A DNA stretch of 64,000 nucleotides from Maylandia zebra (lineage: Eukaryota > Chordata > Actinopteri > Cichliformes > Cichlidae): NCBI RefSeq assembly GCF_041146795.1, contig NC_135179.1, positions 14,009,047 through 14,073,046 on the forward strand, read 5' to 3'. The position numbers and the translations under genes were made by a program. The notes under the pieces are model-generated. The model ran no database searches. It was not told the origin of the DNA and saw only the letters and a program-made list of their open reading frames with translations. Within the stretch, counting starts at the first letter, position 1. The number at the start of each line of letters is the position of its first letter. This document shows positions 4,801 through 45,369 of the stretch, one piece after another.

Positions 4801-7800
4801 AGGAACTGTATGCAATGCCGTATCCTCTACTAACAAATACTTTAAGAGTAAACTGCATCTTATGTAAGATCTTTGTTTTTTGCTTGAACTCTGGGAGCAA
4901 TCAGACACATTTTTAATGTTACATTTTCATCAGATTTACGTAAACAAGGTCGTGGTAAATTCTGTTGTGCCTTTTTGCTCAAGAAGAACACACCTAAAGA
5001 GAAAACTGATTCAAAAGCTTCCTCTTTTTGCTGTCATGTCAAAATAATACAAAAAAAATTAAGTTAAAAAGGGCACAGTGGTGAAAGATCAGTCTGATTT
5101 TAGGCAGGCTGGTTATTTGGGGTACTTTTAAATCTCCAGTGATGCAGAGTGATGAATTCATCCAGAGAAGAAAGTAAAGTAGGAAAGTTGAAAAAAAGTC
5201 CAGCCCACCCAAAATAGAGAAACAAGGCTGGCGCTCCACTGGCCTAGTTACATAAATGTGGATAGGATACACAAGTTAAGATTCCTCTGCAGGGGAAGCC
5301 TGTGTAAAACAGAGTGCGCCCCGGCTTTTCAAACAGAGACTCATTGCTGGAGCTATGAGCTGGTTTGCAATACTTGAAGCATTGTTAAAAAATTTACTCG
5401 CCGATGCACATCGGAGTGTGAATGCGAGTGAATGTTAGATAGAAGCACTAAAAAAAGCCTTAGATAAAGTGCTTGTGTGAATGCACGAGTTGTATAAAGC
5501 GCTTTCAGTGCTCAGTGAGAGTAGAAAAGTGCTACATAAGAACCAGTCCATTTACCATATTTAAACATATCCTCCAGTGAAACTGCAGCACTGCATATAG
5601 CTTTCTCAGCTATATGGCTGGCCTTGTGATTTGGTGCTGTATAAATACAAATTGAATTGAAAACAGTCATTCAACAAATTTCTCTTTTGCTTTACATCTA
5701 AAACTAAATAGCTCAAATGATTTTGTCAGAGAAGAGATAAACTAATTAAATTACAACTATGTATAAGACAATCTCTTGGCATACCCCTTGCAACTACACC
5801 TACATGCAACTCATACCCCACCTACTGATTACTGTCCTCTTCCTTCTCATTCTGCATCTGTGTAAATGTGTTATGGCTCCAGGTCAGAAAGTTAATATTG
5901 CACTGGAACACATAAACATGCTGACACAGCAAAACTTTGGATGTGGATGACTAAAAAGTGATTTCCTCAACATCATCACCTGTAAATGACTTCTGGAACT
6001 TTGGTCGTTTCTTTTTATACTACGCAATTCATGAGGCATAATAAAATGTAGCTGTGCTGTTAAAATGTGGTGCTCCTAAAGGCAAGAAGAATCTGTTGCC
6101 AGCTGAAAGAAAGCATCTAAAAATATCAAGAGAGGCTTGAAGAAAACGCCACCTGTCGCAACGCACACACCTGTGTTTGTGATGGTCTGAAAGTGCAGCT
6201 GAAGGACTGCTGCAGCGAGTCCAGGAAGGGCTGGATCTTGTAAAGGCCCTGGTTGCTTCCTTGTGATGGCCGGAAAGCCACAATGTGGAAGTACTTGAGG
6301 ATCTTCTCAAAACGCGACTGACTCATCTTCAAGGCGATGCTTTGGTTGCTGAAAAAGCCCGAGCTCCAGATGCTGAGCACTGACTCACAGCGGTGCACAC
6401 TGGTGGAGGTGACAAAGCCCAGGAACGCTTTCATTTCCTGGGCCGTGACGGGATGCCAGCCTTCGTCTGAGCCGAACCGCTCCTGAAACTTCTTGGCATA
6501 CATGTTAGTCTGAGTGACCATGTTTTGGATGCAGTTGTCCGGGACAAAGAGCTGGAAAAAGTCCAAGGCTGTAGCGGTGGCCGGCATCTTTTGAGCAGGT
6601 CCTGTGTTGGGAAAAAGGACAAAAGTGAAATGTTATGACAAAAAAAATTATGCTGATTGACAGACAGAGAATCGCACATGGGATAAGTCGCACACAGCAC
6701 TGTCACTTACGCCCAGCTTTTTAACTTTGGTACGAAGCCTTCAATTTGATTGACTTTGCTGAGTAGAAGGGTTTTTTTTGACACAATACAATATCATTTT
6801 GTTGAGCTGTCATCTTCAAAGCTGTGTGGGATGCACACAGGCTCATTCTTGCTTATATAAACTCCAGTGACATCTCAAAAGAATCTTGAGAACAGTAACG
6901 TAAAGCATCAATTAATTTTAGGTGTTACATTGTAGCAAAAAACCTCACCCGGCCCGGACACGGAAAGGATTGACAGATTGACAGATCAGAGGAACGCAGT
7001 ACACTTCGTGCATCAGCAGCTTTTGGGTATGAATGTCATAAGCCCAGGGCAGCAGTTAGAAAGTTTACATGACCTGACAGCCACCACACTGTGGTGCCAG
7101 TCAAAGTGTGGCATTTCTATGCTTGCGGAAGGCTTCAGTGTCTTGTTGCTTTTGTGTTACGGCAGGCAATAAGTCAAAATCACGCTTTAATGTTTGCGAG
7201 CCATGAGCCATTAAAAAACATCTGCACTATTTCAATTAATTTGACTGATGGTTTTGTTTATACAGAATGATTTGCCTTTTTATTAATGAAATTTGAATGT
7301 ATCTAAACCTGTGGAATAACACAGAAGCTTCACTTCATCTGTGTGTGGTTGTAAAGTTTGTGTGATCAGTGTACAGTGTTTAGTCCTTATAATGTACTAC
7401 TTAAATCTATTGAAAGTCTATGTTATCAAGCAAGAAGCTTCTTTTTGGAAACTGCAGCATAAGAACAACTTAAAGAGATGTCTAAAAGTGTAGGCCTTGG
7501 TCACATAGGCAGAGAGAACAGGTGGCTGTGAAGTGACAGTGACATGAACCATGCTAATTGTGCTGATGATCAAACCGCTCACAAGAAACTTGTCTGTGCA
7601 GCACCGTATAGCCCTTTTAGATCAGTTTCACCTAGTCACTGCCAGCAACCACTCACTAACTGGTTGAGGCATGCACAATTTTCCCTAGGAAGCGGTGGTT
7701 GCTAAGAAGTCGCCAACTGGTCTCTATGCCAGACTGTGGCCTATGTGTGACTGTGGCTAACAGCTTAAAGAATAAACATTCAAAATAACACTCACGTGGC

Positions 7801-19400: not shown

Positions 19401-22400
19401 CACACACACATTCATCATTGCACGTCAAGAGAAAGATTAGGGTTCATGTCTTTATTTCACAACCACCACGGTTAACCTTTTCTGGAAAGTTGAAAGTTTC
19501 CATTACACGTGTTGTTGTTTCACGCTATGAGCACGTACACATCAGAGCTGATGCAAGAAAGAAGCTGATAACAGATTGATTGTCTTCTTCCTTCCCTCTC
19601 TGTGTTGCTAATTTTGTTTTTCCAGATACAAGGAAATTGCAGGACGTCTAGAGAATGCTATTAGTGATGGATTGGTGGCAGCACCAGGTGGATTTATTGT
19701 ATTTTTTAAAATTGTATTTGAATTTTATCTGTTCCTTATACAGTACTTAGAGTAACTATGTATCTGCTTACGTTCAGCTGGCAGTGCATACCACCTGCAG
19801 GTATCTGAGGTGGTGTGGTCCTGCTTAGTGAGATGTTGGTCAGACAATGTCTATCTGTCACCTCTGGCACATCGCTTCTGGAAGCTTACGCTGCAGCTGT
19901 ACTCAAGATATGCCAAGTTTCTTGATGAGGTAAACTTAAAATATATGAATGATTATTTATTTATGTGATTATTTATTTATTGATTATTTTATTTATTTAT
20001 GAGATTTAAAAAAATGCCAAAGAAGCCAAATTAAAAGCCAGTTGTTATAACCTGTTTCTCATCTTGATTGTTGTCTTGTGCAGGTGCTGACTAAGTCTCC
20101 GCCCTCTGAGGTGACTAAGGAGCCAACCAGGCCTCTGCCGAGCTCAGCTTCTTCTACATCTAGCAGAACATCACTGGAGGAAGGCGGCAGTGAGAGTGGG
20201 AGTCCTGCCTCCCTGTCCACCAAACAGCTGGTTTACATTGCAGCAGACATCCAAAAACTGCAGGAGCAGGTGCTCACAAACAAACTAATTACATTTTTAT
20301 CTGTGTAGTTCCAACTTGTTTACATTTAATATATTACTGTTTAGCCTGATTTGCAGTTTCTTAAAGGATTTTCCTCTTTAGTTTCCTTTTTTTCATCTCA
20401 CAATTGGCTTGTCTTTCTTTAGATCCCAGAGTTGTCAGAGATGGTCAGAAAGCGGTTTGAAGCCATTGGATTCAAAAACTTTTCTCTTGTGGAAGGTGAC
20501 TTACAGTTTAGGTTCACTTCTTATGCAGTATTTCCTATCATTTCTTAAATCTCAGGTTTTTCCACTTCCTGATGTTAGCTCAAGTTGACTGTATGTGCAT
20601 TAACGAGTGCTCTCCTCTATGTCAGATGCTCTAGCAGACTCCAAGGCTTCCCTGTCAAGCAGCATTCCCTCTCTGAACACTAGGATGACCCAGCATCTGA
20701 CCGAACGCAGCTGTCGATTCCTGAAGAGTGCCTCAGAGGTTCCACGACTCTACCGCAGAACTAATAAAGTAAGAGAAGTTGCAATTATGTATACAAATGT
20801 CTTTATCCAATGTTTTCATAAGGTGCACTCTCACATATCATATCTTAGATGCCGTTGCGTTCAAATGGTTGTTTATGCAGGAAACACCATATGTAAAATT
20901 CAAAATCTTATCTTGGAAATGCACAACATATTCAACTCAAAATTAAGCTGAATTAACAACCATGGGTAGATTTTCTGTTTGATATTCAAATCCCAGAAGG
21001 CTTTTATTGAAATGAATAACGCTTCAGTATGGGGCTGATTTGATTTATTGATTGTGTGTAAAGTCGTGTAGTCACTGAGCATAAAGTTTCATTATGATTT
21101 TGTTGTAAATTGCAGTTTCATCAAAAAAAAAAAAGCAAGAGAAATTTACTGGACTTTTAAATGCTTTGACTTTATTTTTCTATTGAACATGTGTGTTCTT
21201 GCATTCATTCACCAACTTGCATGGTAATTTGCTGCAAGCCCTTTCAGCACATCACTGCAGTGCTGCTGGACTTTGCATAACTACATACATCTGAAATAGT
21301 CTGTTATTCTGATTAATCAGTCATTTCTGTGGCAATGTTGGCAGACTCCTTTATTATTAGTGATTGATAATTGTAGAGTGAATATCAGAACAATATCTGC
21401 CAAGTCTTTATAATCAATGTGATCCAAATCATTGCAAAATGAGTTCCACTTTGTAAACTCGGTCAATATATAAGGCAAAACAATGCTAATCTGAGTTGGT
21501 TAAAATATATTAAAAAGAAACTCATTAAATATCTCTAATTAAAGGTTTTTAGACATGTTGCACCTGTGACTGGTTGTTTTTTTGTCTGATATTTGATCCA
21601 CTATACTTGTAACTATGTACCAACTTACACTGCAATACTCGCACAACAAAGCAAGTGGTTCACAATAAGAGGCCAAGAAAAATAATTCAGTTTATATTAA
21701 TTTATTTTTTACATTTGGTCAAAACAGTATTAAAATGCTTAATATAAAGCTTGTATATTGATTTATAGTATATAATATCATACTTTGTACCTCCTCTCCA
21801 TGTAGGATATACCGGTGCGTGCATCAGCGTACATGGATAATGCCTTACGCCCGTTACATCAGTTACTGACTGATTCGACAGGGCTGGTCACCCCTCACAC
21901 AGCACAAGAGTGGCTGCGAGTTTCACTGTCTGAGTGCACACAGAAGTAAGCATTACACATATCCACCACTAAACCCTGATACAATAATAGATTTGATGAC
22001 TTAGAAATATGGCCTGTGATGATGTTACAATAATGTTTCTTTATTGCAACAGGGAGAATATTTCTTTCTAAAAGCTGGATTGTTTACATTTTATAAAGAT
22101 TTTTCCAGCCTCAGCCAGCGAATTAAATTTGTTTCTGCTTTCCCATCTCATGTTGTGTTCAGGTACTATGAGACCATCTCAGAGGTGCTGAGCTCAGTCA
22201 GAAAGATGGAAGAGAGTTTGAAACGCTTGAAACAAGCCAGGAAGGGTGCAGCCGCGACTACAACAGCAGGAGCAAATGGTGGACTAACAGATGATGGCAA
22301 GATTCGTCTTCAGCTGGCACTAGATGTGGAATACTTGGGGGAACAGGTGGGTGCTATTCCATGAGTGCACAACCACATGTAGTCCAAGTATGAAGACACA

Positions 22401-25079: not shown

Positions 25080-27431
25080 TTAGACCAGAGGATTTATGAT
25101 CTTGCCCAGCATAAGGATGGAGTTAGAATTTCCTTCTACAACAGAAAAAAAGAAAGGCCTGTTAATGGACAGCTTCAGAGGGACACCCTCTTCCTGTGTC
25201 TGGTCCTGAGGTTCTGCTCCTTCCTCTGACATCTCAAACAGCACTTTGTTGATGGCCTAAGAGGAGACATGAAGGTCTATTAATGTCTCATAAATATACA
25301 GAGAGTGATTTTTATATTATGACAAGCTGACTACTCAGGCTGACCTTATCTATGGTGAAGGGTTTGGTGTTGCTGAGTTGGCCGAAATCTGCCTCGGAGC
25401 CGAACAGTTTGGCATCGATTTCAGGATCCACGGTAGTCAGCAGGTCACGCAAATCAGTCACAGAGGACATAGAGAACTTGGGGAGTGACAGCTCCAGGAG
25501 ACTGGAAGAGGGAGACAGAGTTTATAATGAGTGTGTTTTTTGTTTTGTTGTTGTTTTTGTTTTTTGTTTTTTAAATTTTAACAGTATTGGACCTGAACCT
25601 AAAAATCCATAGCTTTTTTTTTTCTCCTATTTTGATCTTTTGAGTTAAAAACAGCATATAGGCACTACGTTTCTGTTCAAAAAAACAACAACCGTTCAAG
25701 GTCAAAGTTTATTCTAAGTCTAGTACTAGTAAAGTTCAATAATCACCCTTCCTGAAGGTTTTGGTGCCAGTCAGAAATTATGTCTGTGCGCAGCTTTGAC
25801 TCCACATCACCGAGTTTAACCCCCTCATGAGGCAAGACCAACAACATGTAGGAGCGTTTGCTCAGAGACAGCTTCACAATGGTGCATTGCCGCGCCTTCA
25901 AAATAAAAGAACAAAAATATTAGAGTCAGGTCGCTATGACTTTAACAAGCTAAATCCACCAACTTGTTATTAATCTTTGTTTCTTAAATACAAAGATTTA
26001 CCTTATCGTTGAAGTAGTGATACTGACCCGTGTGGGTCATCAGTGGAGCCATTACTGTAGTTGTTTGATCCACATGAAACTCCTTCAAGGTCGTTTCCTC
26101 TGGTTGGAAAGCTTTCTTCCAGTTTCCTAAAGAGACGAAACCAAACACAGATTCGAATTTTCTATATACGATAAAGACATTTTTAATGTGAGAGATTTAA
26201 GCAAAAGTCTGAGGAAAGGAAATGCTCCATGATGAAAAGGCTGAGACTGTGGCCCATCGATATCTCTATGGTACAATCAGCATTGTTATTTGTGAAGTTT
26301 GGCATCTGGATCAATGCACATAAAGCTGGTAATTAGAGTCACGATTAATAGAACTGCAAAAAGTTATATATTTATAGATTAGTGCCATACATAATGTACC
26401 AGGGTTGACAAGCTGGTGTAGGCTGCAGAAAGCTAGTTTGAACTTTTAATTGTGAATTCTAATCTACGTACTTTGTATAATCAACTTAACAGAGACAGAC
26501 CTTGGAAGTTGAAGGAGGTGATGAACAGAAGGTTACTGGTGGCATTCAGATCTTTGAAGATGTCCTTCACCTTCCTATCTGACGTCATCTCCACAAAGCT
26601 GTTGACCAGCTGCTCTGCTTCCTGAGGTTTGGAGAAGTCCACACCTCGGATAAACGACGTGTCTGACAAGTCCTGTGTGCCTTGAATAAAGTCCTCGGAC
26701 AGCTGAGCATCCTGACGAGTGAAGGCCCAAACCTGGGTAGTGATTTCATCTCTGGGTCCATCGTCCACTAGAGAATTAATGCCCTGCAGGGTCTTAAGAA
26801 CTTTGTGTCCATCCATTAAGGACACGCAGTCCTTTCCATCAGTATCCCTACTCAGGCCTAGTAGAAGCTGGATAGAAAGAAATGAATTGAGGTTGTTTAC
26901 TTCTTTGTAGAGTGAAAGTACAAGACATAATCAAATAATCAGATGGATGGTCAGACAGATAGCCTAGGCTCAGCAGGTTCTACTTCAACAGTGACAACAA
27001 AAGTAAATAAATACCTGGAATGAACCGGCTGTCTTCTTGGAGGCTCCCAGGTAGAAGGTGACCAGGGATCCAAAGGTGTTGACTGGAGATAAGAGCGTGT
27101 TAGTGCTGTGCTGCTTGCTGCTGAGAGCCTGGTACATCCTCAAGCCTAGAGCATTTAATAGCGCTGCCAAAACTGCTGTCCTCTCTGTGATGTTTTGCCT
27201 CTGTACATCAACTTTTGATGGATCCCTGTGGTCTGGTGTCAAGACTTCATTGTCAAGGGGAGCCACAGGAAGTGTCTCCAGAGGCTTAACCGTGGGGGCC
27301 TGCAGGGACTCACAGCTGACGTTCTCGGCAGCAAAAAGATAGAAGGGGTGAACGTAGACTCGGTTGGCTTGGCTTCCTGAGAGGCAGCAGTATAGTAGGA
27401 GGACCAGAAGAGGTGACCAGAGTCTCTGCAT
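25080..27431 (-). CDS. agt: Angiotensinogen (AGT, serpin A8), precursor of angiotensin; six coding exons, 463 aa
   Basis: Secreted, non-inhibitory serpin cleaved by renin to give angiotensin I. Exons: 27431-27015, 26867-26501, 26126-26002, 25895-25747, 25501-25345, 25256-25080. All have GT-AG borders; phases close over 1392 nt. A 22-residue signal peptide (MQRLWSPLLVLLLYCC...) is followed directly by NRVYVHPFYL, the angiotensin I decapeptide: Asn1 and Val5 as usual for teleosts, Tyr at variable position 9. Two cysteines (NVSC just after the peptide, KDC in exon 2) align with human Cys18 and Cys138, the redox-sensitive disulfide. Serpin motifs follow: HKVLKTLQG, FNFQGNWKKAF and the C-terminal NRPFFFSVVE. 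Introns after FNFQ-G, LQE-G and TIDK match clade-A serpins; two others are extra. It converges tail-to-tail on cog2. Confidence 0.98.
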
Positions 27432-27778
27432 TTTACCTTTGGTTGGAAGTTACCCTAAAATAGTTGTCTCTGTTGGTGGGGGAGACACATATTTAGTTAG
27501 TTCAACCTCAATCACCTCAAGTATAACTGACCATTTTCTGTATCAGCCTGGTTAGGAGAGCGCTGAGTTTGACGTCTTCTGGGAATGTTACGTGACTTTT
27601 TCAACAGCTTTCATCACAAATCAGGCTCAATCTGGTTTTCAGCTTGTATATGATTGGCTGGCAGGAACACTGGATGTCAGAGATTGATTGAATTCTTTGT
27701 GCGCTTTCTCTCCTGCTGGTCAGTGAGTGAGAGCAGACATTACCCTCGGCAACAGAGGTCGCGTAGATAATGAAGACG

Positions 27779-30149: not shown

Positions 30150-30375
30150 GACATAACTATGGATGGTCTAACAATAAGCTTTATTGTAAAGGAAAGTTTG
30201 GACTCTAATCTTATGGTAGAGAGGGTGTCTGCCTCCTGAATCTGAACTGGAAGCTGGTTCCGCAGCCGAGGGGCCTGAAAGCTGAAACTCTAGATCCACG
30301 AGTAAGCCAGCAGTCTGGGAGCAAAATGCTCTGTGAGGATAATATGGTAATAAGATATGATGTGTCTTGATTATT
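30150..30375 (-). mobile_element. L2-like LINE fragment
   Basis: The minus-strand complement of gtagagagggtgtct ... gaactggaagctggttccgc corresponds to the block at 57235-57300 in this window, which encodes the end of a LINE reverse transcriptase (a region reading like LWNSLP...FKxxLK in intact copies). The fragment is short and dead. Confidence 0.6.
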
Positions 30376-30408
30376 GAAGACTTTGTATATGATTCTGATT
30401 CTGATTCT

Positions 30409-31688
30409 GATTATTAGGCAACGTCCTTTCCTTTGGCAAAATGGGTCAAAAGAAGGACTTGACAGGCACAGAAAAGTCAAAAATAGTGCAGAGGGATGCA
30501 GCAGTCTCAAAATTGCAAAGCTTCTGAAGCGTGATCATCGAACAATCAAGCGTTTCATTCAAAATAGTCAACAGGGTCGCAAGAAGCGTGTGGAAAAGCC
30601 AAGGCGCAAAATAACTGCCCATGAACTGAGAAAAGTCAAGCGTGCAGCTGCCAAGATGCCACTTGCCACCAGTTTGGCCATATTTCAGAGCTGCAACATC
30701 ACTGGAGTGCCCAAAAGCACAAGGTGTGCAATACTCAGAGACATGGCCAAGGTAAGAAAGGCTGAAAGACGACCACCACTGAACAAGATACACAAGCTGA
30801 TGGATGGGCCCGTGGCTGGATTGGTAAAGGTCAGAGAGCTCCAGTCCGACTCAGACGCCAGCAAGGTGGAGGTGGAGTACTGGTTTGGGCTGCTATCATC
30901 AAAGATGAGCTTGTGGGGCCTTTTCGGGTTGAGGATGGAGTCAAGCTCAACTCCCAGTCCTACTGCCAGTTTCTGGAAGACATCTTCTTCAAGCAGTGGT
31001 ACAGGAAGAAGTCTGCATCCTTCAAGAAAAACATGATTTCCATGCAGGACAATGCTCCATCACACGTGTCCAAGTACTCCACAGCGTGGCTGGCAAGAAA
31101 GGGTATAAAAGAAGAAAAACTAATGACATGGCCTCCTTGTTCACCTGATCTGAACCCCATTGAGAACCTGTGGTCCATCATCAAATGTGAGATTTACAAG
31201 GAGGGAAAACAGTACACCTCTCTGAACAGTGTCTGGGAGGCTGTGGTTGCTGCTGCACGCAATGTTGATGGTGAACAGATCAAAACACCGACAGAATCCA
31301 TGGATGGCAGGCTTTTTAGTGTCCTTGCAAAGAAAGGTGGTTATATTGGTCGCTGATTTGTTTTTGTTTTGTTTTTGAATGTCAGAAATGTATATTTGTG
31401 AATGTGGAGATGTTATATTGGTTTCACTGGTAAAAATAAATAATTGTAATGGGTATATATTTGTCTTTTGTTAAGTTGCCTAATAATTATGCACAGTAAT
31501 AGTCACCTGCACACGCAGATATCCCCCTAAAATAGCTAAAACTAAAAACAAACTAAAAACTACTTCCAAAAACATTCAGCTTTGATATTAATGCGTTTTT
31601 TGGGTTCATTGAGAACATGGTTGTTGTTCAATAATAAAATTATTCCTCAAAAATACAACTTGCCTAATAATTCTGCACTCCCTGTGTA
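30409..31688 (+). mobile_element. Tc1/mariner-type DNA transposon, broken copy with DD37E-type spacing
   Basis: The right terminal repeat has two copies of a TTGCCTAATAATT motif, at about 31477-31490 and 31660-31673, ending near 31687. The left end keeps only the inner complementary ATTATTAGGCAAC (30411-30422) and abuts a short ATTCTG repeat, so the left tip is lost. The transposase sits between them in three broken frames. The 3' repeat pair suggests an inverted/direct repeat type end. Confidence 0.85.
30441..31356 (+). pseudogene. Tc1/mariner transposase pseudogene
   Basis: A start MGQKKDLTGTEKSKIVQRD at 30441 runs into a stop, then the frame shifts. The paired HTH region follows in another frame (KIAKLLKRDHRTIKRFIQNS). 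A segment around 30790-30900, expected to carry the first catalytic Asp, is deleted and shifted. The C-terminal third is open again (30913-31356) with MQDNAPSHV and WPPCSPDLNPIENLW. I count 37 residues between the Asp of QDN and the Glu of IENLW, against 34 in classic Tc1. The copy cannot make an active enzyme. Confidence 0.88.
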
Positions 31689-32400: not shown

Positions 32401-32408
32401 TATATAAG
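32401..32408 (+). promoter_or_regulatory. TATA box of the CUB/SMB/ZP gene
   Basis: TATATAAG lies 57 bases upstream of the ATG at 32458. A start of transcription near 32430 would leave a 5'UTR of about 28 bases. A TATA promoter fits a tissue-restricted secretory gene. Confidence 0.6.
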
Positions 32409-32457: not shown

Positions 32458-35400
32458 ATGTGGACTCTCTTGTTCCTTTGTGGTGTGCTCATCACACATC
32501 AGGTGCAAGGTACTTTCCATTCGTTTCTTATCATGCTTTTTTTCTTTTTGGATTTTCAAGCAAATTTGTTATTTTGTCATTTGATATTTTCAACAACATT
32601 TGCAAGTTGATGGCTTGTCGGTGCTGCATTTGTAGTCTGAAATTGATGTTATCTTTATGTCATTATCCATCAGGTGTAGATCGTGGCGACGCTGCTCGTT
32701 ATTGGTGGACTACAGCAGATTATTGGGAAACTTCAGGAGATTATTGGGAAACTACACCAGGTTATTCAGGTAAAAGGAAAGATATATGGTACTGTCTTTG
32801 TCTGTCTTAATATTGTTCATTTAATCGCTGTGGTCAACAGTTTACATCAAATAACAGTCATGAACAAAACAGAGTATTAGAGAGATTTTTTAAAATGGAC
32901 ATGAAAGCTAAATGTATAAAGGCTAATTTACACACTGAAACAGTTAATTTACACAAACTGACATAAATGTAACAATGTAGCTGGAATTAAGAAATAAGTG
33001 CTACAAGTTAAAGTTTTTAAAACATGTTTAGCGCCATCTTTTTCAGTACAGAACCTGAGTTGGTTGGTTGCAATCAACTGACTTACATTAGTTCATATAG
33101 CTAACTAATAACAGAACCAGCTAAAAATCTCTTTTGTTGTAAACTGGTTGGATGTACTTGGGAAGAGAAAGATTATTTTATTGAATAAAAACCACTGATA
33201 GCATCGGCTGATTCTGACTCCAGCTAGTAGATCCAGTGAACCACCTGTCACCTGACTCAAACAGGTTCTCCTCCACACTGGTCTCTTTTATGAAGTGCTT
33301 TGGAAACCCGAACATTACGGCTAACAGCTAGATTTCCCTGTGTCAGAGCAGCTAGCTAAACAGCTAAGAGCCACTTACTGCTAAAGGTAATGAGACAACA
33401 CCTACATACAATTTTTTTTCAATGCACCCGTTGCTGATGCAACAAATGCAAATTGTGCAATACATTCATGATTCTGGGCCAATTTGTTTTCTTTAGAATT
33501 TATATATATGACACATGCATATAAAGTTTATAAATAATATTATAGTTCTGGATATCTGTTTATGCTGTAGCAGTTACAATCTTATACATTCAAACAACTA
33601 AAATGTTAAACTCACTGTCCACAAAACTTATTGTTAATTGATTAGCTTTTTAACATTTATTTAATAGATTTTTTTTAATGACTCTGTGTTATTTCAGGAT
33701 GTGGTGGTTACCTGTATGGCAGCAGTGGCAGTTTTTACAGCCCCAACTATCCAAACCTGTACCCAGACAATTCTGACTGTATATGGTACATCAGACCAGG
33801 CAATCAAATTATTCAGCTGGAGCTGTCAGATGTAAAGTAAGCAAGTATTTTTCCATACCTAGGATGAGTGTGATCACTCTTTACTTTGAATTAAAAGTCA
33901 CCATAATACAACCAAAGTTGTGTTCTTGGTTTGTGTTAATCACAGCACTGAGTGTGGATATGATGATGTTTACGTCTATGATGGCTCCAGTACTGGAAAC
34001 CGGCTTCTGGGAAAGACATGTAACAACACCAAAAACAACACTTTCTATTCCACCAGTTATTATTTGACTGTGCGCTTCAGGAGTGATGGCAGTGTAAGAA
34101 ACACAGGATTTCATGCTTCTTACAGAGTTGTGTGTAAGTCACACCTGTTATGATACCTTTATAAATAAAGTTAGGTACCATGTCTACAGTTTATTTGTGG
34201 ATTTTATTGTCAGTGAAAGAAAACAAACAAGCAAAAAAGAAGTAAAAATCATAATCTTGAGATTTTAATTAATGGGAATTTTTTTTGTCTTTTTTGTCTA
34301 TCCTCCTTGAAGCTGGAGGTTCCTGCATTCACAACTGTGGTTACCAGGTTGGATATTGCTCTTGCTCTTCGAGCTGTGTATACAGAGGGGACTGTTGTTA
34401 TGACTACGAAGGTAAGCAATGCTGAAAAGTGCCAAAACGCATTTATTCAGGGCCTGTATTTAATGACAATTTGCGCAACTTGTACTTTATTTTGTGGAAC
34501 GAGGTATACAAACAAAATACGATAAATAATTCATGAATAAGAAAATATAGTACCCAAATATTTGAAAACAGCATGATCAGAGTATGTTTCTTTTTCTTCT
34601 TTCCTGACCCAACGTGCCTGTTATGATACACACAAACATAAAAGAAACTAGATCTTAAAATCTTTATCCCACAGATCACTGCGGATCCACAACAGTAACA
34701 GATATGCCAGAAACAGATGCAACAACAGGTAAATAAAAAGAATTAAGTAAAGATGCTGTTTTAAAAAAAATTAGATTAAAAGCTATAAAGTAAATGTTGT
34801 CTTCCAGATCTGTACTCATGTCTTTACAACTGTGGCTCACACCTGGGAAGCTGTTCCTGTACTAGCTCTTGTGAATACTACGGCAACTGTTGTCATGACT
34901 ACTACTGTAAGTATTCTGTCCTTCAAAGCTCAGCAGAAGGAGGCCCTGCTCACTATGATCACACTTTACAATGAAAATAATTTTTTCTTGCACTACAGGT
35001 GTGCTGCCACACTTCCAACGGTCTCACACTTACCCAGCCTATTAAACAGTCACGTTTATTCAAAAACAAAGGGGTGGGGTGGGGGGGAGCCAAAGATAAA
35101 CTGTTGAGTTTTAATCTGTATGGTTTGCTCCTTTGTTTCAGCTTACTGCCCAAGCACAGGAGATCCAGTCACAGGTATAAAAGTCTGTATGGGGAAACAT
35201 TTTTAAAGCAGCAGCTCAGTAAAAGCCATCTCATAGATTTTTTTAAATACTGTATCTCTCTCTGTTTTCAAGATCAGCCATCATGTCGTTACAACTGTGG
35301 CATGCACCTGGGAAGCTGTTCATGCAGAAGCTCTTGTCAATACAATGGTGACTGTTGCTATGACTACTATGGTAAGTGGCAAGTCTTACAGATCAACGTT

Positions 35401-38400
35401 GTTAACCGTCTCTGCAGCCATCTCTTGCAGGAGCAAACAGTCTGTCAGATTCCAGTGTAATGGTTTTCTGAAAATGACACATGACATTGTGACTTTGTGT
35501 TTAAAGAGACAATTTTCTTTGGCCTTCAGTGGGATATACTGTATGCATCTAGATTGTTTTGGTTGCTCAGTTTTGGAGATATGTCTGTCATGTTTTGAAT
35601 ATAATGAAACTCCCTTGTCATGCTAAGAAAGACAAATAAATGAGTAATAAACATAGTTTAAAAAAAAAGGAAAAGATCAGCCGTAATGTCTCTTTTCAGA
35701 AATTATGACCCTTGCATAATGGGTCATAATGCACAAACCTTGTTATGAGCAGCTTTATCCACTGACCCATACTTGCTTGTGTCTGTGTGTGCATCCTGGT
35801 AGATCTGCTTTTCCTTCTGCAGAATGATATACTTGGTAGTTGCAATTTGGTAGAAGACAAACAAACAAACAAAAAAACCCAACAACAACAACAACCAACT
35901 GCTTACTTGTTTGTGCTCATCTGAACTTGGGTTGCAGTGGCAACAAGCTAATGCAAGATATTCCAGACATCCTTCTCCCCAGCCTCAATTTCCAATTCCT
36001 CCTGGGGGATCCTGAATCCAGGCCTTATTAGAAATGTAATCTTTGCAACACATTCCCTGGGGTCTCCTCCAAGTTCAGCGTGCCCAGAACACCTCTGAAG
36101 ATAGGCAACTAGGAGTGATCCAAACCAGATCAGAATCACCTCAACAGGCTCCTTTTGACATGTTGGGGAAAAGAAAGTCCCTGCATGAAACTGCTCAAAA
36201 CAAGGTTTTACAATATTTCTTTGACAAACCTGGTCCTGATTTCTGAACAGAGACATTCCTGTTGAGTTTTCAAAAATATTTTAGTGCTTTACACACCACA
36301 ACACAATTACCATTTAGTTCCATTATATACTGTATAAGAGAAGGGAGACATCTGCACAGCGGACGTCTCCAAAACTGAACAATCCAGATAAATAAATGGC
36401 ACTCCAGGCTGGAGGGAAAATTAGTGTTTGTAATTTTAAAACTGCCCCCATCAGACTGCAAAGCAACAATTTTTGTTATATTTTTTGGAGAGTGTGGGAA
36501 TTATGTATCTAATTCCCACATCCACAATAATGCCCAATTATTTAAATACTATGTTTTATTTAGAAAACCTTTTCTTCTTTCTGTCAAATAGATTACTGCT
36601 CATCAACCACTACGTGGCCTGATGTTACAGGTGCAAACCCTTACTTAATTTTTAAAAAAATCAATAGTTTGATATTTAATGATTTGCCTGTAGTCTTATG
36701 TCCCCATGTGTTTTCTAGCTCAGCCTTCGTGTCGATACAACTGTGGCTGGAGCATGGGAAGCTGCTCCTGCTCAAGCTCTTGTGAATACTATGGAAATTG
36801 CTGTTATGACTACTACTGTAAGTGTTCAGCCCATCGAATTCATTAGTGCTCATATTAACATAATGTGAATAAGCGGTTTGTTAAACAAGCACATTAAATA
36901 AGTAAGAAAAGGTTAAACTGGCAAAAAGTCAAAATATTTTCTTTCCTCTGTCATGTAGCATACTGCCAATGGTCTACTGACATGCCCACTACCATGCCTG
37001 TTACAGGTATGACAATCTCTCAACAGACTGAATGACAAAAAAAAATTAAACACACCAATTATTCAAACACACTTTTACTCCCCACAGAACAGCCTTCATG
37101 TCAATACAACTGTGGCTGGAACATCGGAAACTGCTCCTGCTCAAGCTCTTGTGAATACTATGGAAATTGCTGCAATGACTACTACTGTAAGTAAAGCTCA
37201 GACGAGAACGTCACTGCAAATGGTGATCACAGTTCCTGCTCAACAGTATAGTGTATGGCTATAAAATTCACTGTATTTGCTGTATTATTTAAATAAACTT
37301 ACGATGATGCCCATAAAATAAGTAAATTCCTGACAGTAAGTAACTTGATCTAATGTTGTAATTATTTTCTTCACTTCTTCTAGATTACTGCCAGTCTCCT
37401 GACTTTACCACAGGTACGAAAACCTCAGTGACCTCGAGTAAAACCAGAAACTGTTAATGCCTCTGGCGAGAAAGCTTACTGAAATGATTTCTGTGTCCCT
37501 CAGCTCAACCCTCATGTCGATACAACTGTGGCAGTTACATGGGAAGCTGTTCCTGCTCAAGCTCATGTGAATACTATGGAGACTGTTGTTACGACTACTA
37601 CTGTGGGTATCTGGTCAAGCAATCTCAACATACATTTATTGCAATATTACTTAAAAAGAAAGTATCTAAAACCTTCATTTCTCCCTTTAAACAGCCTACT
37701 GCTTAGTCTCAACTAGGGAGCCAACAGGTAGGGTCCTCGATGTGCAGAATTAGTCTGGAGCAGTTTTGGTCATTGCAGTGACACTTTTTGCTATTTTATT
37801 AACATTCAACAGGGTCATGTGGAGGCAATCTGTTTGGCTCTGGCACCTTCTCTAGCCCTAACTATCCCAGCTACTATCATGACAATGCCTACTGCATGTG
37901 GCAACTAAGAGCTGCATACGACCAAAGAATCTTCCTGCAATTCACATTCCTACAGTAAGTAAATAGAAAAATGAGCAGCATTGTTATGTGAGGCACAGAT
38001 GGATCAATCATGTGAAGACAGAAGTTACATGCAGATCTTCTTTTTTTAAAATCTAGATCTATGTTTCAACTTTTAAGCTAATTTCTAATTTATGGCTTTT
38101 ATTGTGTTTAAAAAAAACACAGGCTGGAAAACTGCTGTTCCTGCGACTACATTGAAATCTATGATGGGCCATATGTTTATTCACCATTTTTGGGCAAAGT
38201 CTGCAACAACAGTCTGAGCACTTTCTTCTCCACTTCCAACTATATGACTGTGGTCTTCCGGACTGACGGTTCTATGGTTGGTCGAGGTTTCAACGCCGAG
38301 TTCACGAGCTCTTTGACACCAAGCTCAGGTACGCTTATTAGGAAGTAAAAGTCGGACTATTTTGGCCTCTGCTTCTTTGATTATATCGTTTTTCTTTTTT

Positions 38401-40067
38401 AAAACATCATGCATATCTGTACCATTTTTCATACTGTAAAAAGTGGCTGAATAATAATTCAATAAGAACCAAAATGTAGGACCGACAAACCCTGAAAAAA
38501 ATTCAAGCTGCTGTACCAATCTTGTTAACAACATGCTGTCAGGTCGAGTGGACTGCTCCTCAGACAACATGAACATCGTGATTGAGAAGTCTTACTTGAA
38601 CAGTTTGGGTTATGATGGTCACAGCCTGTACCTGAACGACCCACACTGCAGACCCCAGATTTCCTATTACAATGTGGTCTTCAGTTTTCCTCTCAACACT
38701 TGTGGCAACACAAGAGAGGTAGGAACCCCAAAACTTTCTAAAAACAACAAAAAACCCCCCCATTAACAGCAGTATTTTATAATTTTCAAAACAACTGATC
38801 TTCTTCCCTGAACAGTTTGAGAATGGCAAAATTGTGTACACAAACAGTCTTCGTGCCTACAACTCCAACTACGGCGAGATCACACGCCAGTCTAACTTTA
38901 AGCTAAACGTCAACTGCCGAATGGAGGAAGACTCGGTATCTCAGATTTTATACGAGGTCCGTGAACTAGAGAACACCACCATAACGGGCACAGGCAGATA
39001 CAATACCAGCATGGTTTTCTACCAATCCAGCAGCTTCTACTATCAGGTGTGTTTGGGCAGTGAAGGTTTGACTAGAGAGAAAACTCCTATCGTTATAGTT
39101 ATATGATGCTGATAATTTTCTTTCACGCTCAGGTGACTCAATTTCCATATGAGATAACACTAAACCAGAACTTGTATATTGAAATCGATATGAGGAGAGG
39201 TGACAGCAGTCTGGTCCTCTTTATTGACACCTGTATAGCATCACCATCAGCCTTTGATTTCCAGTCAAGACCCTACTACTTGGTTCGCAATGGGTAAGAT
39301 AATGAGTGCCCTCCACGGGTCAGTTTAATTCGCTAACTACACTGGTTTTTGTCCACAATAAGAACAAAGGGATTTGTGTTGTAAATACTAAAACTCCCAG
39401 TGAAAATAACTGAAAAAAGTACAATATTTAATAAGCACTATAATTTAGTATGCTTTTGAGATATCTGTAGCTTATACTCCAGCTATGGTTACTTTAAACA
39501 TTAGGATTTCACAGATACAATTTAAAAGATACAATGATCTCATAAAAGGACATTATTTTATAATAAATTAATTGTTCCACCACTTTTTCTAAATAATGGT
39601 CTCTTTTTGTAAGCAAAAAAACAAACCAGTAATGCGTGTATTTTCCAGTAACATCTCTTTCTTTATCATTCTCAGTTGTCCAATAGATAACACCTACTAT
39701 GCCTACACTACTGGCACCAGCCCGTTTGCTCGTTTCACTTTTAAGGCCTTCCAGTTCTTGCGGGCCACAGAAGACGTGTACCTCCAGTGCAAGGTCCTAA
39801 TATGTCCAGCCTCCGACTACAACTCCCGCTGCCGCCGCGGATGCACCAAACGAGTGGCCAGAGACGTGGGGTCTGAACATGAGAGTGAAACTCTGGTTGT
39901 GGGTCCCATTCACCTTTTAGGTAAGTGCGACTTTGTACTTTGTTTTGAATTCTTGTGCTAGAAGAACAAAAAGTGAACAAAGTATCTGACTATTACTTAC
40001 TTTTTTTTTTTTATTTCTAGACCCTGAGAAAAAGGAAGATGCGAATGATGAGCAGAAAGAAACTTAA
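32458..40067 (+). CDS. Secreted CUB / six somatomedin-B-like modules / CUB / ZP-domain protein (CUZD1/DMBT1-like; 23 exons, 837 aa)
   Basis: Exons: 32458-32509, 32674-32769, 33698-33836, 33946-34133, 34313-34411, 34675-34728, 34808-34906, 35142-35174, 35273-35371, 36592-36630, 36719-36817, 36959-37006, 37088-37186, 37384-37413, 37504-37602, 37695-37727, 37813-37954, 38123-38328, 38543-38718, 38816-39046, 39133-39293, 39676-39920, 40021-40067. All phases close over 2514 nt. Signal peptide [18 protein letters not shown]; a WET-repeat spacer; CUB 1 (about 51-158, [19 protein letters not shown]); six 8-Cys modules (about 160-435); CUB 2 (436-551); ZP domain (about 553-815). There is no C-terminal membrane helix. 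Human CUZD1 is CUB-CUB-ZP and, like DMBT1, lies near IKZF5, so orthology to CUZD1 is likely but unproven. Apical or luminal secretion is inferred from the family. Confidence 0.93.
34313..37727 (+). repeat. Tandem array of six 99-bp somatomedin-B-like exons alternating with short linker exons
   Basis: Exons 5, 7, 9, 11, 13 and 15 are each exactly 99 bp and start and end in phase 1. Each encodes the pattern CxCx3Cx5CCxDY, preceded by two further Cys. Linker exons of 54, 33, 39, 48, 30 and 33 bp follow, each opening with the eighth cysteine (HC or YC) and then a Thr-rich spacer. Modules 4 and 5 differ by about two bases over their last 50 bp including the donor, indicating recent duplication or gene conversion. 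Confidence 0.92.
35922..36160 (-). mobile_element. LINE 3' fragment in the intron between SMB modules 3 and 4
   Basis: On the minus strand the sequence includes ggatcccccaggaggaattg and a downstream gctggggagaaggatgtctgg block, typical of the 3' end of a fish LINE. It explains why this intron (35372-36591) is the longest in the module array. Confidence 0.55.
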
Positions 40068-40160: not shown

Positions 40161-40166
40161 AATAAA
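40161..40166 (+). terminator. Polyadenylation signal of the CUB/SMB/ZP gene
   Basis: AATAAA 94 bases after the stop codon, giving a short 3'UTR. Confidence 0.75.
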
Positions 40167-42333: not shown

Positions 42334-44423
42334 TTACTTGTGTTGCCCGCGTGCAAAGTGGCAGGCAAAGTCGTACTTGCTCTTGCACTTGTGGCCGCAG
42401 ATGTTGCACTGGAATGGGTTCTCGTAGCCATGGCAGCCCATGTGAATGGTGTAGAGGATGTTGTCAGGGAAGTAGATATCACAGTGCTGGCAGTGATGCA
42501 GCATGTGGGGGTCCTGAAGTGGGGCGGACAGGCCGGGAGCTGGCGTACTGGGCTGGCTGTTGGAGATACTAGGGGTGCTGGTGCGCCCACTGTGCTCGCT
42601 GCACGGTCCCGCTCCAGGACTGCAATTACTGTGGGGAGGAGCCCGGGGTTCTGGGGGGATTGGGGATGAGGAAGAAGCATGGGCCATATTGGCTGTCACA
42701 GCAACAGGAGCCGTGGCAGGGTGTGGCTGCTGGATGAGGAATGGCTTCTCATCAATGATAGACTCTGCTCCTGGAGACATCGAAGGCTGAGTCTGGGGCT
42801 GGGACTCTGAGGGGAGACTGGCCAACTGGCCTGCCAGAGTAGACAACTGGTTCAGGGGGTTATCCACGACCATATCATGGTGATGGTGATTTTGGTTTGC
42901 GGAGAGAGCGTCCTCGCCTGCTCGACTTTGATTATCATAGGTTTCCTGACGTAAGTGGGGCAACTCATGGGAGAAGTCGTTCACATTGTCAGCCTTGTGC
43001 ACCACCATAGAAGGGGGGCTGAAATTGATAAGGAGCCTGCGGCCATAGCCCAATGAACTGGCTTTTTTCTGTAAAACACTCAGCATCTTCTTATGGGACA
43101 GTGAGCGGGCGCCTTTCATTGGCAGGAGTTTGTGACGTCTCCGGCGATGGTGTGACAAGTTGCTACGATCGCTGCAGCGGAATGAGCACAGCTCACACTT
43201 GTAAGGCTTCTCGCCAGTGTGCGATCTCATGTGGGCCTCCAGGTGACGCTCGTAGGCCGAAGCAAATGGGCAGAGGTGGCAGCGGTGAGGTTTCTCTCCT
43301 GTTCAAAAGAAAACAAGCTGAGCACCAAAATCTCATCAGTGTTACCTCCTGGAGATTAGCCGTTTTAATCTTACCTGTGTGAATTCGAATGTGTTCAATG
43401 AGCCGTGCTGTGCCTCTGGTAGCATAGTTGCAGTAGCGGCACTTGAGCTTGCCATCATAGGTCCTCTCGAAACCATCTACCAGGATCCCTGAGTTGTCCT
43501 CCAATGACATGTCCACTGAGGGGTGATCCAGTCCATTCTGACTGCAGTCTGCTTATAGGAAAATTAAAATGATTTTTTACATAGACCAAAAATAAATAAA
43601 TACATACATACAAAATAACAATAACTTCCTGACCCCTGCTTGCCTGCAGCAGTTGTGGCAGTTTTAGGGTTTGGGATGGGGTAGGGGGTTAGGGTCTTGT
43701 ATTGGACTTCCAGTGTCAACAGCATCTTGGCTTTGCACTACTTACGTGAAATCAATTACTAATCCCTCATAGTTGTTTTACAGATTTTACACTGGTACTT
43801 GCTGAGTTGATACAATTTAAACTTCACCTGAATGGAAGGACTTGTCCTTGTGCGGTAGGTCTTGAAAAAAAAATTAATATCAAAATAATTCAACAAAATT
43901 ACCTTGTCAGTTATACAGCACCATCTGGAAATGCAAAGATTTTGTTCTACATGGACAGAAACATCTACTGGTATTTTTTTTAAATCTTTTGTAGTACCTG
44001 TCATATTTGCTCAAACTAGAAGTAAAAATTTAATTTAATTTTTTTAATCTTTGTGATTTTCTTGTCAGTCGGCCATATAAAAAAAAATCTTCAAAACTAT
44101 TTAATAAATGAAGCTAAAATTTCACAGCAATAATTGTATATGTCCAATCCTTGAACCATAAGGTTTTTAGGCATATCTGAGATGGTCGAGCAGAAGGCCT
44201 ACGGGGATTTGAGATGGACTCATCCTGATTCAAACTTCACCACAAAGCACACAAAATTAATAGAGCGTTACAAACACAGCTTCTTGTTACCTGCTGGCAG
44301 CTCATCCGCCTCCTTGACGCCGCTGACAGAGCCTGATATCATGTTGACATGTTGAGTCTGCTGGCTCAGATACTCCTGAAAATCCTTCACAAAGTCCAGC
44401 GTGTCCGGTTTTTCCTCCCCCAT
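42334..44423 (-). CDS. ikzf5: IKZF5 (Pegasus), Ikaros-family zinc-finger transcription factor, 423 aa
   Basis: Nuclear DNA-binding factor of the Ikaros family. Coding exons 44423-44291, 43548-43375 and 43298-42334 (133+174+965 nt, 424 codons with stop); GT-AG throughout. It starts MGEEKPDTLDFVKDFQEYL as in human Pegasus (419 aa). Three N-terminal C2H2 fingers: one in exon 2 (CRYCNYATRGTARLIEHIRIH), then CHLCPFASAYERHLEAHMRSH-type and CELCSFRCSDRSNLSHHRRRRH. Two C-terminal dimerisation fingers: CQHCDIYFPDNILYTIHMGCH and CNICGHKCKSKYDFACHFARGQH. The middle is Ser/Pro-rich with conserved VDNPLNQLSTLAGQLASLP. An in-frame ATG at 44477 is unlikely because a splice acceptor (TTTTTAG) lies at about 44466-44460, between it and the start. 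Confidence 0.97.
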
Positions 44424-45369
44424 CGAAAGAATGTGCGAGTAATGCAAAGGTCCAACACTAAAAAGACGTTCAGACACGTGTTACTGACCAGCAAAGACGA
44501 AGACACGCGAGGTCGGAAGAACAATTTTCTGAACTGTTTAAGTAAAAGATTACAGGAAAACAACCGGATTTGAACAAGTCAAAGCATGACCATCATCAGC
44601 TAGCGGATTTTAAAAGAAGCACACCCACCTCTTCAAAGCTAAAACAACGACTTAAATGTTTCGATGGGTTTGATCTGAAATTCTGTTTTGTGGTAATCCA
44701 GACACACAGACAGGATAACCCTGGGATAATATGATTGACAAGCAGGAAATCGCCGCTTTCCGACGTCTGCTCCGTCTGTCCTACACGGTGCTCCTCATCT
44801 TCGCGATGTTGTTACCAAAGCTACGCTACGCTACATTAGCCGAAAAGCTAACTTTAGCTTATCTTGAAGAAAGCATCTCTGTTAAAGAGCTACCCCGGAT
44901 TTCTGGTCATCATTTACGCTTAACTAGATCCTCAATAATACCGGAGCGATTAAATGTTTCCCTCTGTCGACAAACTAGTAATTATTCACACGAAAAAGAA
45001 GCCTACTAAATCAAAACAATAGCCCATTTTACCAGGGTTAAAGTTCACTCTGTGTTCGTCCGCAAAAACCCTCCTGCCACAGCTACGGTGTAAAACGAGA
45101 GTTCCTACGAATAAAGCTCTAACAAACCCAGGAACGCGTGATATGTTAGTTACAGATACAAGAGGCCACCGTAGCTTCTTGTCGAGCTAGTTGTACTTTT
45201 TTTTTTTTTTTTTTTAGGAGAAAACAGCTTACGGTTTGACGTGACGTGCAGGCAGTATGATTCTGGCTCTCTGAGAATTCCTAGGAAAATGTGAAATATG
45301 TTCAGCAATTTACTGAATTAAGAGCAAACATAGACGGAATTTGAGTATATAAGGAAAAAACAGAGTTTG

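Follow-up and report, generated by a model that had tools for sequence, protein, structure and literature searches.

A CUZD1-like CUB/ZP gene of the cichlid Maylandia zebra with six somatomedin-B modules predicted between its CUB domains

CUZD1 and DMBT1 are the closest described systems to the gene reported here, which lies in a window of 64,000 nucleotides (positions 14,009,047 to 14,073,046 of contig NC_135179.1, hereafter C13, in the 962-Mb Maylandia zebra assembly GCF_041146795.1). CUZD1 has nine exons, two CUB domains and one zona pellucida (ZP) module, and the human gene is located at 10q26.13 with DMBT1 immediately upstream (PMC3654630). DMBT1, which binds and agglutinates bacteria, consists of SRCR domains with Ser/Thr-rich units of 20–24 residues, followed by a CUB-SRCR-CUB-ZP arrangement (PMC3100851). 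For DMBT1, the ZP module has been proposed to mediate aggregation (PMC3100851), and the same has been voiced as speculation for CUZD1 (PMC3654630). The fish gene, which we call the CUB/SMB/ZP gene, shares the two CUBs and the C-terminal ZP module with CUZD1 but has six somatomedin-B (SMB) modules with linkers between the CUBs. We favor, at about an even chance, the reading that it is a CUZD1-like fish CUB/ZP gene at the apparent CUZD1/DMBT1 locus, with twelve symmetric SMB and linker exons between the CUBs, and that it encodes a secreted, polymerizing ZP protein for multivalent binding.

We rebuilt the gene from the DNA by splice consensus and reading frame. The model comprises 23 exons at 32458–40067 (+; coordinates are those of the window, and all features of the gene and its ends given below are on this strand), starts with ATG at 32458, ends with a stop codon at 40067, and encodes 837 amino acids, exactly the length of the conceptual protein that had been claimed for this region. 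All 22 introns are of the GT...AG type, and a single open frame with compatible phases runs through the 23 exons, the splicing being deduced from consensus sites and phase. Along the protein, a putative signal peptide is followed by a CUB domain, six SMB modules, a second CUB domain and a ZP module. On the whole protein, Pfam reported CUB in two stretches (E 3.8e-45), Somatomedin_B in six stretches (E 1.3e-22) and the ZP-C part of Zona_pellucida (E 1.4e-28), as well as a weak match to DUF7592 under its cut-off; no SRCR domain was among the Pfam results for the protein. When the SMB modules were submitted singly, all six exceeded the Pfam gathering score of 23.1 (25.4–30.5 bits). In phmmer searches against PDB sequences, the CUBs matched cubilin, PCPE1 and neuropilins, and the SMB region matched SUSD2 and ENPP1; module 4 alone matched SUSD2 (E 3.5e-4), ENPP1 (7.7e-4) and, marginally, vitronectin (0.016). 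An SMB regular expression gave six matches in the six-frame translation of the window, all inside this gene, and no match in 100 first-order Markov simulations of the window. The Pfam scores and the PDB matches of module 4 rule out another fold for the Cys modules. Thus, the CUB-(SMB)x6-CUB-ZP architecture proposed in the initial annotation is supported at the sequence level by the gene model, Pfam and the PDB matches; the somatomedin-B Cys spacing that it had read fits all six modules, and the Pfam search that it had suggested assigns each of them to Somatomedin_B. The domain combination is unusual, yet the gene appears to be a variation on a known kind of gene. Our searches of open-licence papers turned up no protein described as combining SMB with CUB and ZP; fish orthologs are very probably already predicted in protein databases.

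The SMB array has a regular exon layout. Each module is encoded by a 99-bp exon that stops just before the last Cys and is followed by a linker exon of 30–54 bp. As assigned by Pfam and the gene model, the six module–linker pairs occupy 34313–34728 (exons 5 and 6), 34808–35174 (exons 7 and 8), 35273–36630 (exons 9 and 10), 36719–37006 (exons 11 and 12), 37088–37413 (exons 13 and 14) and 37504–37727 (exons 15 and 16, with the donor GTGGGT at exon 15). All twelve array exons are of phase 1-1. Because they are symmetric, gain, loss or skipping of a module–linker pair, or of the array as a whole, would leave the reading frame intact. The linkers are rich in Ser, Thr and Pro, which together make up 44–64% of their residues. 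Modules 4, 5 and 6 are 82–91% identical to each other in DNA. Module 1 diverges most, with 57–60% identity to the others. The modules are under constraint: the ratio of nonsynonymous to synonymous substitution (dN/dS) between them ranges from 0.14 to 0.69 and is below 0.5 in 14 of the 15 pairs, by a simple count that is noisy at about 32 codons per module. This layout is best read as the design of DMBT1 (also known as salivary agglutinin, hensin or muclin), in which a Cys-rich module with a short Ser/Thr-rich linker is repeated on a scaffold of two CUBs and one ZP, with SMB replacing SRCR. The position differs, however: the fish modules are flanked by the two CUBs, and in DMBT1 most repeats come before the CUBs. 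DMBT1 proper was ruled out by the absence of SRCR from the fish protein in Pfam.

The eight-Cys signature of the modules is shared with other SMB proteins (vitronectin, ENPP1 and SUSD2), from which the fish protein differs in carrying six tandem copies. If the array acted like the SMB module of vitronectin, it would bind PAI-1 or uPAR and regulate proteolysis or adhesion. Membership of the same domain family, the borderline similarity of module 4 to vitronectin SMB and the Tyr-Tyr pair after the fifth Cys, which is retained in modules 2, 4, 5 and 6, are compatible with such a role. Vitronectin, however, makes an ionic contact with Arg91 of uPAR through Asp22, in a pose resembling that with Arg101 of PAI-1 (PMC8417595), and the residue aligned with Asp22, immediately after the CxC, is Ser in four fish modules, Thr in one and Arg in one; none of the six has Asp. 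These replacements make a vitronectin-like action very unlikely, and we rejected it. The modules also differ from other SMB loci in gene structure. An intron splits every module of the CUB/SMB/ZP gene just before its last Cys, whereas at eight of nine other loci the translated run is unbroken to the last Cys, the ninth having been read on the wrong strand.

The array is embedded in a CUB/ZP framework. Exon 1 (32458–32509) carries the start codon and the putative signal peptide (18 letters), the only segment that rises above 1.2 in a hydropathy scan, and exon 2 (32674–32769) encodes an N-terminal Trp/Tyr/Thr-rich stretch (22 letters). CUB1 (exons 3 and 4, 33698–34133) and CUB2 (exons 17 and 18, 37813–38328; Pfam CUB at residues 438–543) are each encoded by two exons with phases 1-2-1, identified by Pfam and exon phase, and contain four and six Cys, respectively. 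The ZP module follows in exons 19–22 (38543–39920). Both ZP-N and ZP-C appear to be present: in the phmmer search, residues 551–819 aligned with the ZP module of uromodulin, which bears out the complete ZP module of the initial annotation, although Pfam itself reports ZP-C only. Residues 552–800 contain ten Cys. After this Cys region we read by eye an R-X-X-R site, RVAR, and then a hydrophobic patch, VVGPIHLL, ahead of a hydrophilic tail, which is encoded together with the stop codon by exon 23 (40021–40067) and lacks a membrane anchor; no 19-residue segment past residue 40 exceeds a mean hydropathy of 1.2. With the ten Cys, the R-X-X-R site, the hydrophobic patch and no anchor, filament formation by the ZP module is plausible.

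Could the model have joined two genes, an SMB-repeat gene being nested in or lying beside a CUB/ZP gene? The model is predicted from the sequence, intron 9, at 1.2 kb, is long, and some of the donors are weak (GTGCAA and GTGGGT), all of which would leave room for such an error. The single open frame, the matching phases of the 23 exons and the symmetry of all twelve array exons argue against it. So do the regulatory signals read at the outer ends of the gene, to which the scan was confined, namely a TATA box, TATATAAG, at 32401–32408, 57 bp before the start codon and with a putative promoter role, and AATAAA, a possible polyadenylation signal, at 40161–40166. We consider a mis-joined model highly improbable. 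With a symmetric array, an isoform skipping it would remain in frame. A search of the long intron for remnants of SMB exons gave none, the sole match there being of 18 residues, on the opposite strand and with an E of 7.5.

After subtraction of the array, the N-terminal exon and the tail exon, nine exons are left: one for the signal peptide, two for each CUB and four for the ZP module. This equals the exon count of CUZD1, to which the fish framework may correspond one to one. The extra N-terminal exon and the hydrophilic tail exon, like the array, set the fish gene apart, and we did not file it as CUZD1 proper, given the SMB array between the CUBs and the lack of a membrane segment. Cuzd1-like genes have been described in several fishes. 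In cod, larvae reared in a flow-through system had higher levels of cuzd1-like ZP transcripts than larvae from a recirculating one; these genes are described as having no clear mammalian ortholog, and a secreted role in host–pathogen interaction was suggested (PMC5938384). In zebrafish, a neurod1 mutant showed raised cuzd1.1 and cuzd1.2 (PMC8959185), and in salmon, Cuzd1 was detected in gill cells that were non-differentiated (PMC8129531). The CUB/SMB/ZP protein might instead be a structural protein of an apical matrix, such as that of the lateral line, inner ear, egg envelope or gill, with the SMB modules serving as stiff cross-linked spacers rather than as ligand binders. ZP proteins are often matrix scaffolds, which speaks for this alternative; however, SMB modules go unmentioned in the available portions of the reports on the cod, zebrafish and salmon genes, none of which is shown there to be orthologous to ours (PMC5938384, PMC8959185, PMC8129531). 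We regard a purely structural role as rather doubtful.

The surroundings of the gene agree with a CUZD1-type identity on one side. To its right, the window contains C2H2 zinc-finger exons at 42334–44480 (−), which we take to be ikzf5, Pfam showing zinc fingers only; the exon taken for the N-terminus of ikzf5 had no Pfam family match. Beyond the right end of the window are two homeodomain genes (fetched segments L009, 3290–3940, and L010, 1358–1939), presumably hmx3 and hmx2, for which Pfam likewise shows homeodomains only. If these names and their human order hold, the gene would resemble CUZD1 in lying next to an ikzf5-hmx3-hmx2 block, which we take to correspond to human 10q26, next to CUZD1/DMBT1. 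To the left are serpin-like exons at 26481–27449 (−; Pfam Serpin), the first of which encodes an angiotensin-like NRVYVHPFYLF after a signal-like start and reads as angiotensinogen (agt); Asn1 angiotensin is typical of teleosts. Farther left come a C-terminal COG2 exon at 22023–22364 (+; Pfam COG2_C) and a PiggyBac-type transposase domain (DDE_Tnp_1_7) at 6126–6632 (−), which we take to be probably a domesticated pgbd5 (pgbd5-like) gene adjoining cog2 and agt. We assume that this left block (agt, cog2 and the pgbd5-like gene) corresponds to human 1q42. Since the left neighbors are of 1q42 type and the right ones of 10q26 type, synteny lends one-sided support to a CUZD1-type gene. A Tc1/mariner-type transposon remnant lies just upstream of the gene at 30371–31356 (+), with DDE_3 at 30766–31356, near the break between the agt block and the ikzf5 block.

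Within the searches that we ran, the SMB array and the ZP part have no close relative in the assembly. A genome search with the ZP part gave seven matches among 34 scored candidates, of which four were the gene itself and three had 21–23% identity. The search with two SMB modules gave eight matches among nine scored candidates, seven of them in the gene itself; the eighth, on C7, has 48% identity and reads like a SUSD2-type gene. The Pfam SMB profile had 15 matches over the genome, none of them on C13. It thus missed the gene's own split modules, and other split modules would escape it too. A CUB search yielded 36 matches among the best 150 of 189 candidates, four being the gene itself, and the matches listed included three adjacent CUBs on C18 with 37–41% identity. 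The C18 gene (segment L051, 324–3497, minus strand) has three single-exon CUBs followed, as read by eye, by a ZP-N-like exon and a transmembrane segment, and we take this membrane-anchored CUBx3-ZP-N gene to be CDCP2-like. The flanks (40 kb to the right and 20 kb to the left) held no second copy, with no tblastn match of the protein at E 0.1, and the last ZP exon found no relative among prokaryote and viral contigs, where stray fish DNA might have been met.

SRCR exons are abundant in the genome, with at least 150 listed (the best 150 of 389 candidates were scored) and none on C13 among these matches. Among the matches listed, SRCR arrays stand near ZP-C exons on the same strand on C3 (13.25–13.99 Mb) and C6 (35.27–35.30 Mb), and several of their SRCR exons have identical profile scores. 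These arrays resemble our gene in placing Cys-rich modules close to same-strand ZP-C exons, but the modules are SRCR there and SMB here. CUB1 had no match on C3 or near 35 Mb on C6 among the best 150 of 189 candidates, and the ZP exons of the C3 and C6 arrays did not match the ZP protein of our gene at E 0.001. The two arrays are probably expanded DMBT1-like SRCR-ZP genes, separate from the CUB/SMB/ZP gene.

Several points weigh against the favored reading of a CUZD1-like, polymerizing protein. Human CUZD1 carries a C-terminal membrane segment, whereas the fish protein has none. The synteny with 10q26 is one-sided, the left neighbors being genes of human 1q42, and the names ikzf5, hmx3 and hmx2 are provisional, Pfam giving zinc fingers and homeodomains only. 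The kinship with CUZD1 and DMBT1 drawn in the initial annotation is supported by architecture and by one side of the neighborhood, with gene names that are partly provisional. That the array is spliced to the CUB and ZP parts is a prediction from consensus sites and phase, and binding and polymerization are predicted properties. Finally, the cod protein is described as having an unknown N-terminal domain (PMC5938384).

If the CUZD1-like reading holds, the simplest history would be that a CUZD1-like gene gained an SMB–linker cassette between its CUBs and then multiplied the cassette. The protein would probably be secreted from an epithelium, and cleavage near RVAR would release the hydrophobic patch, upon which the ZP modules could polymerize or aggregate. 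Such a polymer would display arms of six disulfide-stapled SMB knots on O-glycosylated linkers, and it would most likely serve to bind multivalently, either in mucus or within an apical matrix. By analogy with the reported sites of its CUZD1 and DMBT1 relatives, gut or pancreatic mucus is a candidate site.

A bolder proposal, which we advance tentatively and hold to be well short of an even chance, is that the CUZD1/DMBT1 locus of this fish lineage produces a mucosal agglutinin built on SMB, an SMB–linker cassette of symmetric exons having multiplied where DMBT1 has SRCR and linker. The product would be a multivalent ZP polymer that arose by convergence, and the length of its arms could vary by exon copy number or skipping. 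If this is true, fish genes annotated as CUZD1 or DMBT1 may differ from their mammalian counterparts, and the gene would offer a clean example of exon shuffling of a module array. The CUB/ZP scaffold of mucosal defense would have been fitted in fish with a different repeated Cys-rich module, which would suggest that the conserved principle is the combination of scaffold and linkers and not the SRCR module itself.

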